IMG/VR virus record: IMGVR_UViG_3300024302_000061
Span: 1-21,703 of that record
DNA from: a virus
Direction: 5' to 3' (one strand)
DNA length: 21,703 bases
This document shows, one piece after another, positions 5,456 to 21,030 of the stretch. The translations under genes were made by a program, and so were the position numbers. The notes beneath the pieces are model-generated. The model did no database searches and was not told the origin of the DNA. It saw nothing but the letters and a program-made list of their open reading frames with translations. Positions within the stretch are counted from its first letter, which is position 1. Each line of letters begins with the position of its first letter.

Positions 5456-6711
5456 AAGAGTTAGACGGTGTACCATATCACCGGGAAGCGGAACGGGAAT
5501 TAGTCTGTAGCCTGATGGCTGGGCCAGACTATATTTTCCGTGTAGCTTCAGAGGTTGACCCGTCCTATTTCTTCAACGAAGATTTCAGGGCGGTATATAC
5601 CAAGCTGTTGCAGAAGGCCCAGGCTGGTGAGAAAATAGAAGAAGTAACATTCTCTGATGGTGAGAGTGAAGACCGTAAAATCTTATTGATGAGGTTGTTT
5701 GACAATGCAATCACAGGAACCACAGCCCCGCACTGGGCTAAAAAAGTTCGCGAACACGCGTATGCCAGGGAAATCTATCAGCTTGGCGTTGCCTTTTCTC
5801 AACATGCGGCTCAACTTGAGGATTTTCAAGAGGCAGATTCATTCCTACGATCCAGAACAGATGCGGTACTGGAAAAGTTCAATATGGGAAGTGACGATAC
5901 ATACAGCCCCACCGACATCGGGGAAATCTGTAACACCATACAGGACAAAAGGAACAACCCTGGAATACATGGAATTAGAACGCTGTTCCCGATCTTTGAC
6001 AATGTGGTGAAAGGCTTGAAGATTGTTAATCTCATAACTGCCCCGTCTGGATTTGGCAAGACCGCACTGGGGTTACAATGGGCTTGGAACATAGGTGTAA
6101 AGCAACGTATCCCTTGCCTGTACATAAACTTTGAGATGGGTGAGGATGAGTTACTTGAGAGGATGCTGGCATCTGGATCGGACACATTACTTGATAACAT
6201 TCAACTAGGTGAAACAAGTGAAGACGAACATAATAATGTTTCCAACGCTAGTGCCGCACTTTCGGACAGCAAACTACACGTTACTGGCTGTGAGGAAAAA
6301 ACTATTGACAACACGATTAATCTTATTCACCAGTATCATGCTCAACATGGTATTAAGTGCGTATTTATTGACTATATAGGGGAGGTGTCGAAGAAAGATG
6401 ACGAACACACACTCAACACTTATGCGTTATACGGGAACTGGGTTCAACGAATTAAAGGAGCGTGTAGCAGACTTGACATTAAATCAGTCATCCTCGCGCA
6501 ACTTAATCGCGATGGCTATGACGGACCCCCCAGTATGCAAACCGTTGCTGATTCCATGCAGCTTGTCCACAAGGCGCACGTTGCCTGTGGTTTGTACGAG
6601 AGTAAAGCTGGGGCTACGCATCTTAAGATATTTAAGAACAGGGGTGGAGCAATAGTACAGCCTATCCCAATGAATTTTAACCGAAAAACCCAGCGAATTA
6701 CTGAGCTATGA
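5452..6711 (+). CDS. Replicative DNA helicase, DnaB family
   Basis: This 419-aa hexameric helicase would unwind the phage replication fork 5'-3'. The N-terminal helical domain (residues about 1-145) begins PYHREAERELVCSLM, the start typical of DnaB. The RecA-like domain has Walker A APSGFGKT (197-204), NFEM (226-229), Walker B CVFIDYIG (303-310), and AQLNRDG near 349-355 where the family has its sensor/arginine-finger region. It is slightly shorter than the usual 450-470 aa DnaB. It is coupled by ATGA overlaps to the upstream loader candidate and the downstream GIY-YIG gene. No DNA polymerase or primase is visible in the window. Confidence 0.93.
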   Translation: MKELDGVPYHREAERELVCSLMAGPDYIFRVASEVDPSYFFNEDFRAVYTKLLQKAQAGEKIEEVTFSDGESEDRKILLMRLFDNAITGTTAPHWAKKVREHAYAREIYQLGVAFSQHAAQLEDFQEADSFLRSRTDAVLEKFNMGSDDTYSPTDIGEICNTIQDKRNNPGIHGIRTLFPIFDNVVKGLKIVNLITAPSGFGKTALGLQWAWNIGVKQRIPCLYINFEMGEDELLERMLASGSDTLLDNIQLGETSEDEHNNVSNASAALSDSKLHVTGCEEKTIDNTINLIHQYHAQHGIKCVFIDYIGEVSKKDDEHTLNTYALYGNWVQRIKGACSRLDIKSVILAQLNRDGYDGPPSMQTVADSMQLVHKAHVACGLYESKAGATHLKIFKNRGGAIVQPIPMNFNRKTQRITEL

Positions 6712-7103
6712 CACCACACAAAAGTCACAAAGAATTATTTGATTTGTCAATTACAGTAGACGAGGTGGACGGTCAGGGGATATATTTTTTTTGGGATGAT
6801 GGTGTGTGTGTTTATGTTGGGAAGTCAATCCACATGGTCAACCGTGTAACAACCCACAAGTATGGGATTCCTAGACATATAGGGCTTGATGGAAAACTTG
6901 TACTACCTGGGCAGAAGGGTCGGAAAAAAGGACAAACTTGGGTAGACCACAAACGCCCTAAGAAAAGAGTATTCAAAATATTTGACAGGGTTACATTGTT
7001 ACGGTATGCCGGTACACACAAATCCCTGATAGAGTTAGAGAATTACTATATTAAAAAGTTCAACCCAAAATACAACGGTAACACATCAGGAGAAAATAAA
7101 TGA
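6708..7103 (+). CDS. GIY-YIG endonuclease
   Basis: This 131-aa protein contains the GIY-YIG nuclease core. GIYFFW, then CVYVGKS (residues about 25-45) give the two signature strands, HMVNRVTTHK supplies the following helix with its arginine, and SLIELENYYIKKFNPKYN holds the metal-binding glutamate and the terminal asparagine motif. There is no extra DNA-binding domain, so it is a minimal free-standing nuclease. It sits directly after the helicase gene, a common spot for homing endonucleases, but it does not interrupt a gene. It could be a homing nuclease or a resident repair or host-DNA nuclease. Confidence 0.85.
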   Translation: MTPHKSHKELFDLSITVDEVDGQGIYFFWDDGVCVYVGKSIHMVNRVTTHKYGIPRHIGLDGKLVLPGQKGRKKGQTWVDHKRPKKRVFKIFDRVTLLRYAGTHKSLIELENYYIKKFNPKYNGNTSGENK

Positions 7104-10062: not shown

Positions 10063-10469
10063 ATGAAAAACTTGTGCTGACGGATGAGGAGTTTGCAGGA
10101 CTGAAAACAGACCTTGCTAAGTATGTGAAACAGGTGGTGCTTAAAAGAAAAGAGTTTGACAGCCTAATCGCCACTATTGAGAGTTTGAAGGAAGAAGTCC
10201 TATTAGAAAAACAATCTGCATCTTCTTATAAATTTAGCAACGACCTACTAAGGGGGCGGTATTGCTTTGAAAAGTATAAAGAATTTGAAAGAGAAGTTGA
10301 GAGTTTGAAGGAACAGGCAAATCAAGACATGGGAGCTTTTGTTTCTATGCCAATGCGAAGGGATGAGCTTGAAGAAGAAAACGAAAAACTCAAACAGCTA
10401 ACGTGTGAACTTGAAGATGATAGGCGCAAATTAGATATAGCAAATTACAAGCTCAAAAGCCGTTTGTAG
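10059..10469 (+). CDS. Coiled-coil protein, last gene of the replication-side operon
   Basis: This 136-aa protein is mostly helical with heptad-like runs (SLIATIESLKEEVLLEKQ, EVESLKEQANQD, ELEEENEKLKQLTCELEDD). SLKE recurs, suggesting repeat expansion. It overlaps the previous gene by 4 bp and ends the unbroken gene train that began at 2147. A structured non-coding region follows. Function unknown. Confidence 0.55.
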   Translation: MNEKLVLTDEEFAGLKTDLAKYVKQVVLKRKEFDSLIATIESLKEEVLLEKQSASSYKFSNDLLRGRYCFEKYKEFEREVESLKEQANQDMGAFVSMPMRRDELEEENEKLKQLTCELEDDRRKLDIANYKLKSRL

Positions 10470-10508
10470 ACTTTCAGCATTAAGCAAGAGGGAACAAACG
10501 GTTGGTAG

Positions 10509-10601
10509 GGGGGTTGGCCCTGAATCGGTGGGCGAGAGTCAGGTACTAGGCTATGATGCTGAATGTGCTTATAGCTGATGATGGGAGTTGGCACAGCCCC
10601 C
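10509..10601 (+). ncRNA. Folded RNA candidate A (multi-stem junction)
   Basis: In the 278-bp non-coding gap after the coiled-coil gene, an outer helix GGGGGTT (10509-10515) / AGCCCCC (10595-10601) encloses two perfect arms: CCTGA / TCAGG (10519-10523, 10539-10543) and GCTAT / ATAGC (10550-10554, 10571-10575). This is the plan of a three-way-junction RNA. Its 5' part shares GGYTGGCCCTGA and a GTGGG...GAGTC-type segment with candidate B downstream. It matches no RNA family that I recognise. It could be a small RNA, a leader element or part of a mobile unit. Confidence 0.45.
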
Positions 10602-10682
10602 TTGCCTTAAATTCAAATACCACAGCATCCGGTGGTTTGCTAATAACCTGGGGCAGCAGGGTCGGATGCACTAGCCCAAAAG

Positions 10683-10721
10683 GGCCATGTCTATCGGGGA
10701 GCTAACACACTCCCCGTGGCC
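10683..10721 (+). promoter_or_regulatory. Leader hairpin just upstream of the twin-arginine/capsid-fragment gene
   Basis: The perfect 7-bp stem CGGGGAG (10695-10701) / CTCCCCG (10710-10716) is extended by GGCCA (10683-10687) / TGGCC (10717-10721), with a 7-nt bulge on the 5' side. It ends 13 bp before the TTAAGGAGATAATCAA ribosome-binding site. It lacks a clean U-tract (TACTTTC follows), so it reads more as a regulatory leader or mRNA-protecting hairpin than as a terminator. Confidence 0.5.
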
Positions 10722-10747
10722 TACTTTCAAATTAAGGAGATAATCAA

Positions 10748-11143
10748 ATGGAACTTAACAGGCGTAGTTTTCTAAAGAAGTTGGGTATAGGAACGGCTGG
10801 TGTCGCGGCTGTATCTGCTGGCTTGAATCCTTTAAAGGCTGTAGAGGCTAAAACGGGTGCTGGTTGTTATGAAACTATTATAGGGGTTGATCCTGGGCGT
10901 GTTGAGAAAGGATACATGTCAACCGTATTCAGGAGTAAAAAAGAAGATTTAACAGACGTTATCTACAATATCAGCCCCATAGAAACACCGATGACACGTA
11001 ATTATGAATGGCAGACTGACAGCATATCAACCAATGCTGATCGGTTGTCGCAGTTTGAGAAGGATAGCTTATCCAGGCAAATAGCTATCGCGGGTAGGAA
11101 AATGCGTGAGGATATGATAACCCATTTTAACACTAAAAAGTAG
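10748..11143 (+). CDS. Twin-arginine signal fused to fragments of an SU10-type major capsid protein
   Basis: This 131-aa protein starts at an ATG preceded by AAGGAGATAATCAA, a strong ribosome-binding site. Residues 1-34 form a textbook Tat signal: NRRSFLKK (RR at 5-6), a glycine/alanine hydrophobic stretch (12-26), and a possible cleavage site after AVEA (31-34). Residues 66-92 (KKEDLTDVIYNISPIETP, then YEWQTDS) match the N-terminal region of SU10/DUF5309-type phage capsid proteins. The last helix (FEKDSLSRQIAIAGRKMREDM) resembles a later helix of the same proteins. As I recall the family, the stretches between these blocks are much longer in real capsids, so this looks internally deleted and lacks the capsid core. 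It stands alone between two structured non-coding regions. An exported capsid-derived interference or envelope protein is possible; a decaying capsid remnant is the alternative, but the intact signal and ribosome-binding site argue for use. Confidence 0.75.
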   Translation: MELNRRSFLKKLGIGTAGVAAVSAGLNPLKAVEAKTGAGCYETIIGVDPGRVEKGYMSTVFRSKKEDLTDVIYNISPIETPMTRNYEWQTDSISTNADRLSQFEKDSLSRQIAIAGRKMREDMITHFNTKK

Positions 11144-11150
11144 AATTTAT

Positions 11151-11234
11151 AGGCTGGCCCTGACCGTACAACCCAATGTGTGGGTTGCAAGTCCGATGAA
11201 CAGTGAAAAGGGTACACACCAGCTTAGTCTTTTT
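11151..11234 (+). ncRNA. Folded RNA candidate B with terminal T-run
   Basis: This lies 8 bp after the stop of the twin-arginine gene. An outer 7-bp helix AGGCTGG (11151-11157) / CCAGCTT (11219-11225, one G-U) encloses CCCT / AGGG (11158-11161, 11209-11212) and a perfect hairpin CAACCC / GGGTTG (11169-11174, 11182-11187). Five T's (11230-11234) follow, so it could be a 3' end or terminator-like RNA. It resembles a tRNA in size but lacks a T-arm sequence and a U33-type anticodon loop. It shares GGYTGGCCCTGA with candidate A. Confidence 0.45.
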
Positions 11235-11483
11235 ACTCCTAAAATGAAGAAATCACCAAACACTGTCAAACCAGAAACACCCTATAAACCCATGAAAACA
11301 AAAGCCCTTAAAACTTTCTTCGCAAGGTTCCCATTTCTGTGATACTATGTAAAAGAGATGTCCAGAAATTTAAGTTTATCGCTAAAGGACAAATCCCCTA
11401 AAAGAGGCTACACCTAACTGGTTTTGAGTTAGGTGAATGAGATTTAGATGTTTTGACTGGTTTAGATTTTAATGGAGAGTTGT
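11235..11483 (+). promoter_or_regulatory. Non-coding stretch before the HNH-AP2 gene, with hairpin and weak promoter-like site
   Basis: No convincing gene is seen here. A 32-codon frame from 11244 lacks a ribosome-binding site. TGTGATACT (11338-11346) resembles an extended -10 element, but no good -35 is visible. A perfect 8-bp hairpin CACCTAAC (11411-11418) / GTTAGGTG (11428-11435) stands about 48 bp before the HNH start. With the flanking RNA candidate B, the gene-free stretch after the twin-arginine gene totals about 340 bp. Confidence 0.35.
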
Positions 11484-11951
11484 ATGCGTAAGATAGAATT
11501 GACACAGGGGTTGTTTGCGGTTGTTGACGATTCGGATTATAAATATCTGAATCAATTTAATTGGTGCGTTAGTGGCAAAAAAACATCCGACAGGCGGTAT
11601 GCTACAAGAACGGAAAAAGGGAAAAAGGTTTCTATGCACCGGGAAATTATGAATGCCCAACTTGGGGAATGTGTAGACCATATTAGTAGGGATGGCCTGG
11701 ACAACAGAAAATCCAATCTGCGTATTTGTACCGTTTCACAGAATGGCATGAACCGTAGAGGGAAAATCGGTGGGACTTCAAAATTCAAGGGCGTGAGTAG
11801 TCCGTCAATGACTTCAAAGTGGGTGGCGAATATCAGGGTCAACGGTAAAAACAAGTGTTTAGGTCGGTTTGAAAATAACGTAGATGCCGCTAAAGCCTAC
11901 GATGTTGCGGCTAAGGAATACTATGGTGAGTTTGCAAGGACTAATTTCTAA
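11484..11951 (+). CDS. HNH endonuclease with AP2 DNA-binding domain
   Basis: This is a 155-aa protein. ATG 11484 is preferred to 11472 because GGAG lies 6 nt before it and the family normally begins RKIELTQGLFAVVDD. The N-terminal strand pair (DYKYLNQFNWCV) is followed by the HNH core: MHREIM, CVDHISRDGLDNR and SNLRICTVSQNGMNR. An AP2-type domain makes up the C-terminus (FKGVSSP, WVANIRVNGKNKCLGRF, DAAKAYDVAAKEYYG). Such proteins are phage homing endonucleases. Its stop overlaps the next gene's start (TAATG), so it is coupled to a PD-(D/E)XK nuclease. It does not sit in a recognisable intron. Confidence 0.9.
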   Translation: MRKIELTQGLFAVVDDSDYKYLNQFNWCVSGKKTSDRRYATRTEKGKKVSMHREIMNAQLGECVDHISRDGLDNRKSNLRICTVSQNGMNRRGKIGGTSKFKGVSSPSMTSKWVANIRVNGKNKCLGRFENNVDAAKAYDVAAKEYYGEFARTNF

Positions 11952-12322
11952 TGGGTGGTAAAGCATCCAGAGACAAAGGACAAAGGGGTGAACGTGAGGT
12001 ATGCCAGTTACTAGGTGACCTTTTAGGCGTTGACCTTTCCCGCACTTTGGACCAGACTCGCGATGGTGGTGCTGATATAGTCTGGGAGTTGTGGGCCATA
12101 GAGGTTAAAAGGCGCATCAAATATACCCAAGGTGACGTAATGAAGTGGTGGGATCAGGCATGTCAGCAGGCCAAGACACTTGGTAAACATCCCGTTTTGC
12201 TTTACAGGGCTGACCGTGAAGAATGGGAATGCCTGATGCCGTATAGTTTAGAGGAAAACCCTAGCCTGTATTATGTGCATGGTGATATGAAACTGTTGGT
12301 TTCAAGGATCAGGAATGATTAG
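11951..12322 (+). CDS. PD-(D/E)XK nuclease, Holliday-junction-resolvase-like
   Basis: This 123-aa protein has KGQRGEREVCQLL (N-terminal glutamate helix), DGGADIVW (metal-binding aspartate) and WAIEVKRRIKY (E-x-K), with KWWDQACQQAKTLGKHPVLLYR completing the fold. This arrangement is typical of small phage nucleases called putative Holliday junction resolvases. Debranching of recombined or replicating DNA before packaging is the likely task. It starts on the stop codon of the HNH gene and its end overlaps the next gene by 8 bp. Confidence 0.8.
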   Translation: MGGKASRDKGQRGEREVCQLLGDLLGVDLSRTLDQTRDGGADIVWELWAIEVKRRIKYTQGDVMKWWDQACQQAKTLGKHPVLLYRADREEWECLMPYSLEENPSLYYVHGDMKLLVSRIRND

Positions 12323-20574: not shown

Positions 20575-20731
20575 ATACAAATGTGAAAAGTGTGGCTTTA
20601 CAAAAGAGGTAATTATTATCAACGTGAGCATTTCCGGTTACCCAGCCAAAAAGCGTTGTGATAAATGCGCTGGCATGATGACCCGTGTTCCTACAGCACA
20701 CGCTAAAACGGCTGGTAAATGGCTAGTCTAA
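20561..20731 (+). CDS. FmdB-type zinc-ribbon protein
   Basis: This 56-aa gene begins MPIFEYKCEKCGFTKEV and continues KKRCDKCAGMM, the FmdB-like zinc ribbon with two CxxC pairs. The rest (TRVPTAHAKTAGKWLV) is a basic tail. Such proteins occur in phages between terminase and portal. GGAG lies upstream; the stop overlaps the HNH start by 13 bp. Confidence 0.75.
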   Translation: MPIFEYKCEKCGFTKEVIIINVSISGYPAKKRCDKCAGMMTRVPTAHAKTAGKWLV

Positions 20732-21030
20732 CAAGGCACGAAAAGCGTGACTGTCTTATAGCCTATATGGGCGGTAAATGTGAGGAATGTGGTTATGTGT
20801 TTGAGGGGTGGAACGAAGGTGCTTTCGAATTCCACCATATCAAACCCAGAGATAAGAAATTTACCCTTGGCAAGAGAAACATGAACAGACGGTGGGATTC
20901 CCTACTGGATGAGGCAAAGAAGTGTAGTTTACTTTGTTGTATGTGTCATAGGCTGTTACACATAAAACAAGACAAGCCAATATATGTTAACATAAAAGGA
21001 GAGAAACATGCAAGAAAGACAACTGGGTAG
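20719..21030 (+). CDS. HNH endonuclease next to terminase
   Basis: In this 103-aa protein the zinc pair GGKCEECGYVF is followed by FEFHHIKPRDKKF (the first histidines), LDEAKKCSLLCCMCHRLLH with CxxCH, and a lysine-rich C-terminus. This compact HNH form is often encoded beside phage terminases, where some members aid DNA packaging and cutting rather than homing. It sits between the zinc ribbon and the small coiled-coil gene. Confidence 0.85.
   Translation: MASLTRHEKRDCLIAYMGGKCEECGYVFEGWNEGAFEFHHIKPRDKKFTLGKRNMNRRWDSLLDEAKKCSLLCCMCHRLLHIKQDKPIYVNIKGEKHARKTTG

Follow-up and report, generated by a model that had tools for sequence, protein, structure and literature searches.

An open reading frame (ORF) on the plus strand of the window (the whole 21,703-nucleotide stretch of viral DNA analyzed here) joins an N-terminal twin-arginine (Tat) signal to part of the N-terminal arm of an SU10-type major capsid protein (MCP) (Table 1). 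Its bounds and length (10748-11143, 131 aa) agree with the initial annotation, and the fusion claimed there is borne out by matches to a Tat signal model, TIGR01409, and to SU10-type MCPs. This Tat/capsid chimera is real and so far one of a kind. The frame runs uninterrupted for 131 codons, through the junction of the two parts and the losses in the capsid part, and its codon use is typical of this phage. Shine-Dalgarno matches were compared at 28 of the 43 hand-drawn gene models in the window, and because of the strong ribosome site at its ATG, the ORF is probably translated.

Table 1. Features of the chimeric ORF, its surroundings, and the head genes on contig L174
Feature	Location	Strand	Remark
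Stretch without gene model before the ORF, 278 nt	10470-10747	+	G+C-richer than the upstream stretch
Shine-Dalgarno-like TAAGGAG	10733-10739	+	longest match of 28 plus-strand starts checked
Chimeric ORF, 131 aa, Tat signal and truncated SU10-type capsid N-terminus	10748-11143	+	
Tat signal region, residues 1-34	10748-10849	+	end set by eye; model spans residues 3-23
RRSFL of the Tat signal	10760-10774	+	
Internal AAGGA followed by ATG (Met57)	10908-10918	+	near the usual MCP start; suggestive
Capsid block 1, residues 65-82 (KEDLTDVIYNISPIETPM)	10940-10993	+	
Capsid block 2, residues 87-92 (EWQTDS)	11006-11023	+	about 10 aa absent before the block
Possible beginning of the capsid spine helix, residues 105-131	11060-11140	+	weak, alignment-dependent
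Possible capsid-like continuation, in frame beyond two TAG codons	11144-11173	+	weak
Stretch without gene model after the ORF, 328 nt	11144-11471	+	
HNH_3 and AP2 endonuclease gene, homing type, next gene downstream	11472-11951	+	
ORF in the scaffold position, before the MCP gene	L174 4219-5232		no Pfam match
Intact SU10-type MCP, 332 aa	L174 5248-6246		head operon, usual place

Tat signal and capsid arm of the ORF

The initial annotation had proposed running a Tat predictor on the N-terminus. The NCBIfam Tat signal model TIGR01409 matched residues 3 to 23 with 21.9 bits, exceeding its cut-off of 16.7, and the Pfam TAT_signal model matched the ORF weakly (6.8 bits against a cut-off of 22.7). 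None of ten other window proteins, taken from the same 43 gene models, had an NCBIfam match at E ≤ 0.01. Under a rule that combines a twin-arginine motif with a hydrophobic stretch, the start of the ORF was the sole match among 123 stop-free frames of at least 60 codons; 51 of 100,000 shuffles of residues 2 to 40 also satisfied this rule. We therefore regard the Tat signal as a solid prediction. An iron-sulfur protein, conjectured as the source of this part, was supported by no search (best E 0.2).

The N-terminal arm motif of SU10-type MCPs is present at residues 57 to 97. Pfam SU10_MCP (PF17236) matched the ORF with an E value of 3.8e-4 and 20.5 bits, under its gathering cut-off of 24.1, and PHROG 1328 (major head protein) gave an E value of 3.8e-4 as well. 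A tblastn search with the ORF matched the MCP of Sinorhizobium phage phiM5 at E 1e-6, and the capsid protein of PDB 9ny2 matched residues 59 to 84 at E 0.0054. Two profiles built here scored 31.4 bits (10 MCPs) and 32.9 to 33.9 bits (31 MCPs, the distinct sequences among 34 that passed a length filter out of 37 profile matches). In the MCP alignments, block 1 ranks with the best conserved stretches. From these matches, the capsid arm is a solid assignment: the likeness to a capsid protein that the initial annotation had claimed is significant at about residues 57 to 97 and not significant at residues 98 to 131. The single PADLOC hit, a weak one of HEC-03B to residues 57 to 93 (window 10916-11026, E 0.0056), coincides with the capsid block and was taken for chance.

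The capsid parts that had been described as missing are indeed absent when the ORF is set against intact MCPs. In MAFFT alignments some 10 residues are lacking ahead of EWQTDS, and a comparison at the MCP start suggests that another 5 may be gone there. The full-length capsid fold (E-loop, spine helix, P and A domains) is not present in the ORF, and most of the protein is absent in three MCP alignments.

The C-terminal helix, which had been likened to a further part of the same capsid family, is suggestive at most. Residues 105 to 131 scored 3.7 bits against the MCP profile, a score equaled by 4 of 2000 shuffles (hmmsearch reported a score for 1495 of them). MAFFT opened a gap of about 40 to 50 residues after EWQTDS and set these residues on the spine helix, with a placement that varied among three alignments. 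BLAST and the profile aligned the stretch after EWQTDS at low identity without a large gap, and the tblastn match to contig L110 runs through residues 63 to 125 with a gap of 10 aa alone. Because BLAST and the profile disfavor the gap of 40 to 50 residues, an internal loss after EWQTDS is not certain. Reading past two TAG codons raised the score from 3.7 to 6.0 bits (25 of 1000 shuffled continuations scored as high), and the Pfam model read through the same two stops gave 5.3 bits (E 0.29); this hints, short of proof, that the 3' end has decayed. An AlphaFold model of the ORF showed one long helix (mean pLDDT 55.6, pTM 0.22) and says nothing on folding, since the intact MCP used as a control was also modeled poorly (mean pLDDT 42.3, pTM 0.32).

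Met57 aligns within one residue of the start of the L049-type MCP (GYMSTVFRS..KKEDL versus GNIMTTFRTYAAIGMREDL), and the join may lie immediately before the start of a captured MCP gene. Shine-Dalgarno matches of at least 5 bases are common (14 of the 28 gene starts checked), so the AAGGA at Met57 is suggestive and no more; the ATG of residue 123 is also preceded by a match, of 4 bases.

Surroundings of the ORF

On either side, the ORF is bordered by a stretch without gene models. Rfam gave zero matches in the window at gathering scores, and at E ≤ 10 the segment 10380-12000 gave three chance-level matches with no intron among them. Three promoter-like sites were counted where 2.7 would be expected, each of them on the minus strand, and terminator-like sites numbered 3 against 1.2 expected, of which one was on the plus strand, within the HNH gene. 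A long hairpin is predicted at 10470-10747, with a fold no better than shuffles. Structured RNA in the flanks was rejected (fold z-scores of −0.35 and −0.73, not better than shuffles), and a 12-nt direct repeat (10512 and 11152) and a 14-nt inverted repeat were put down to chance by judgment, with no null computed. A decayed full capsid gene at 10300-12000 was likewise rejected: apart from the block already described, a six-frame profile search turned up a single match, with a negative score.

When the flanks were compared by tblastx with the loci collected, only the phage's own contig and one match at E 0.036 were obtained. The best match of 10460-11475 at the DNA level in phage records was 47 nt of block 1, 83% identical to a capsid gene (E 2e-3). 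Downstream, the HNH_3/AP2 gene is followed by a PDDEXK gene that is common to the relatives L020 and L021; the stretch before this gene in L020 carries different ORFs and nothing matching the chimeric ORF. Elsewhere in the window, an HNH-type gene (20719-21030) occupies the interval between terminase and portal and has relatives in nine related contigs at 40 to 51% identity.

Intact capsid gene and distribution of the fusion

Contig L174 (IMG/VR 3300024327_000146) is 97.6% identical to the end of the window over 416 bp and 100% identical to the end of another viral contig, G001, over 89 bp. It encodes an SU10-type portal and, in the head operon, an intact MCP that matches SU10_MCP with E 3.4e-83 and a score of 280. 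By these overlaps and matches, a normal MCP is encoded by this phage or by a sibling strain. Because the intact MCP sits in the head operon on L174, the chimeric ORF is an extra, truncated copy. The place after the scaffold gene is taken by the intact MCP and not by the chimeric ORF, which lies apart from the head genes, as the initial annotation had noted. The comparison with the phage's own capsid gene that it had suggested was made with this L174 gene.

The 54 nt of block 1 share 61% identity with the MCP gene of L174 and 74% with the MCP genes of L009 and L178. At 61% identity to the L174 gene, the block is no recent self-copy. In a codon comparison that took in 7 of 10 MCPs, 4 of the 18 codons of block 1 were unchanged relative to the L174 MCP, 10 differed synonymously, and 4 were nonsynonymous; for the 24 tail codons set on the spine helix, the corresponding numbers were 4, 4, and 16. 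Judged by this divergence, the capsid fragment is old or of foreign origin rather than a recent duplicate of the L174 MCP gene; the amino acid constraint in block 1 may go back to the donor capsid gene.

In viral contigs, where the look-up finds close relatives only, the ORF was matched in G001 alone, with a sequence identical to that in the window. The window and G001 differ at 15 positions in 17,501 bp, all within 6294-6613 in a DnaB-like helicase gene, and may by this measure represent one population. As the ORF is without variants in the two, they provide no measure of selection. The 320-bp patch at 6294-6613 adjoins a GIY-YIG gene (6708-7103) and looks like gene conversion beside a homing-type endonuclease.

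A match at E ≤ 10 was present in 141 phage records, in none of them over 80% of the ORF, and plasmids gave none at E ≤ 1. In bacterial and archaeal genomes, where again only close relatives are found, two other Tat-type proteins were matched and nothing else. Across these four collections, nothing beyond G001 spans both parts. A pattern scan listed at least 120 loci, all 120 of which were checked, with eight copies of the window or G001 left out. The capsid block was in frame at at least 40 loci (which include contig repeats and near-identical contigs, so that independent phages number fewer than 40), and G001 was the only one among the matches listed with an upstream twin-arginine motif in the same open frame. 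The initial annotation had set homologues with the same fusion in other phages as a test of its proposal, and their absence as refuting it; no second lineage was found in these collections.

Origin and possible roles of the fusion

With a probability of about 55%, we consider the ORF to be a lineage-specific recombination product, most likely a neutral by-product without a conserved role. Illegitimate recombination would have moved the 5' part of an SU10-type capsid gene, encoding the N-terminal arm, far from the head operon and set it behind a leader encoding a bacterial-type Tat signal, with a single open frame spanning both. The capsid piece may have arrived with a start codon and ribosome site of its own, and two products would then be possible, a Tat precursor from the ATG at 10748 and a 75-aa cytosolic capsid-arm piece from Met57. 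Measured against intact MCPs, the piece would be short of some 10 residues ahead of EWQTDS, possibly another 5 close to the start, and possibly 40 to 50 following EWQTDS, in addition to the remainder of the capsid protein. The neighboring HNH endonuclease may have promoted the exchange through DNA cutting.

This origin is consistent with the intact MCP on L174, with Met57 and its AAGGA aligned at MCP starts, with a fusion found in one lineage only among the collections searched, and with a block 1 that is no recent self-copy. When set on the spine helix, the tail has far more nonsynonymous codons than block 1 (16 of 24 against 4 of 18), the capsid-like reading seems to extend beyond two TAG codons, and flanks without gene models lie on both sides, with the HNH gene next. 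Against a neutral by-product stand the open frame kept over 131 codons, the amino acids of block 1 kept despite synonymous change, ordinary codon use, and the longest Shine-Dalgarno match of 28 at the start. The internal deletion leans on the tail alignment, which neither BLAST nor the profile preferred.

Some of these same features would suit a working exported protein, carried by Tat to the periplasm or tethered in the membrane, where it would alter the envelope or block other phages. The Tat signal is above its cut-off and is the sole rule match in 123 open frames, the ribosome site is the longest match of 28, and the frame stays open across the in-frame losses. However, no relative carrying the fusion turned up in the collections searched, and the Tat pathway normally carries folded proteins out; the poor model (pLDDT 55.6, pTM 0.22) says little here, the intact MCP control being no better. 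We judge such a protein unlikely, if worth keeping in view. A cytosolic fragment, either the 75-aa product from Met57 or the unexported precursor, could instead bind MCPs and disturb the assembly of competing phages or act as a decoy for host capsid sensors. The AAGGA-ATG near the MCP start position and the strong conservation of block 1 among MCPs fit this proposal, but most of the capsid fold is absent, the fragment might harm the phage's own assembly, and no comparable gene appears in the titles and abstracts of the matches listed; it seems a long shot. Doubtful, too, though slightly less so than the cytosolic fragment, is the broader idea that a foreign capsid arm was repurposed as a Tat-exported or membrane-tethered protein, or as a dual-start gene with exported and cytosolic products, that interferes with other phages. 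The new use of a capsid fragment put forward in the initial annotation has so far gained no support.

A sequencing or assembly join without a real gene would fit the fact that just two contigs carry the ORF, identical outside the 320-bp patch and perhaps from one population. It is nevertheless very improbable, given that the window and G001 agree here, with all 15 differences in 17,501 bp elsewhere, and that the intact capsid gene is not at this spot. The ORF could also be an exon of an intron-split capsid gene, stopping where the intron begins. A precedent is phage C72C1, where a group I intron (RF00028, E 1.6e-19) interrupts the MCP gene, and an HNH gene lies downstream of the ORF here. This reading is disfavored as the most improbable: no intron is among the Rfam matches at E ≤ 10 in 10380-12000, no second capsid exon occurs in six frames of 10300-12000, the intact MCP is located elsewhere, and the ORF extends beyond the C72C1 insertion site (as judged visually and from the weak tail alignment).

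If the ORF is a relic, as the recombination by-product would be, it shows that a captured capsid gene start can mimic a secreted gene without having a function, which is a warning for annotation. If functional, it would, to our knowledge, be the first known capsid-derived protein to leave the cytoplasm and would show a path from a structural gene to an interference factor. We know of no earlier capsid-derived protein sent out of the cytoplasm, and none is described in the titles and abstracts of the matches listed.

Like the SU10-type MCPs (PF17236; phage phiM5 MCP, PDB 9ny2), the ORF contains EDLxDVIYNISPxETP and EWQTDS and perhaps the beginning of the spine helix; unlike them, it is missing some 10 aa ahead of EWQTDS and everything in the later part of the protein, carries a Tat signal, and lies outside the head operon. 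It shares the RRSFLKK motif and the hydrophobic stretch with Tat signal-bearing proteins (TIGR01409) but has a capsid-like part next to the signal in place of a known Tat substrate domain. The record of C72C1 (OQ984150) has a group I intron in the capsid gene (L012 25495-25735) and annotates two separate head-protein genes flanking it. C72C1 is a relative, with a terminase that is 51.8% identical, and its SU10-type MCP gene is interrupted; it differs from the present case in having a true intron and two capsid exons within the head operon, no Tat signal, and another break point.
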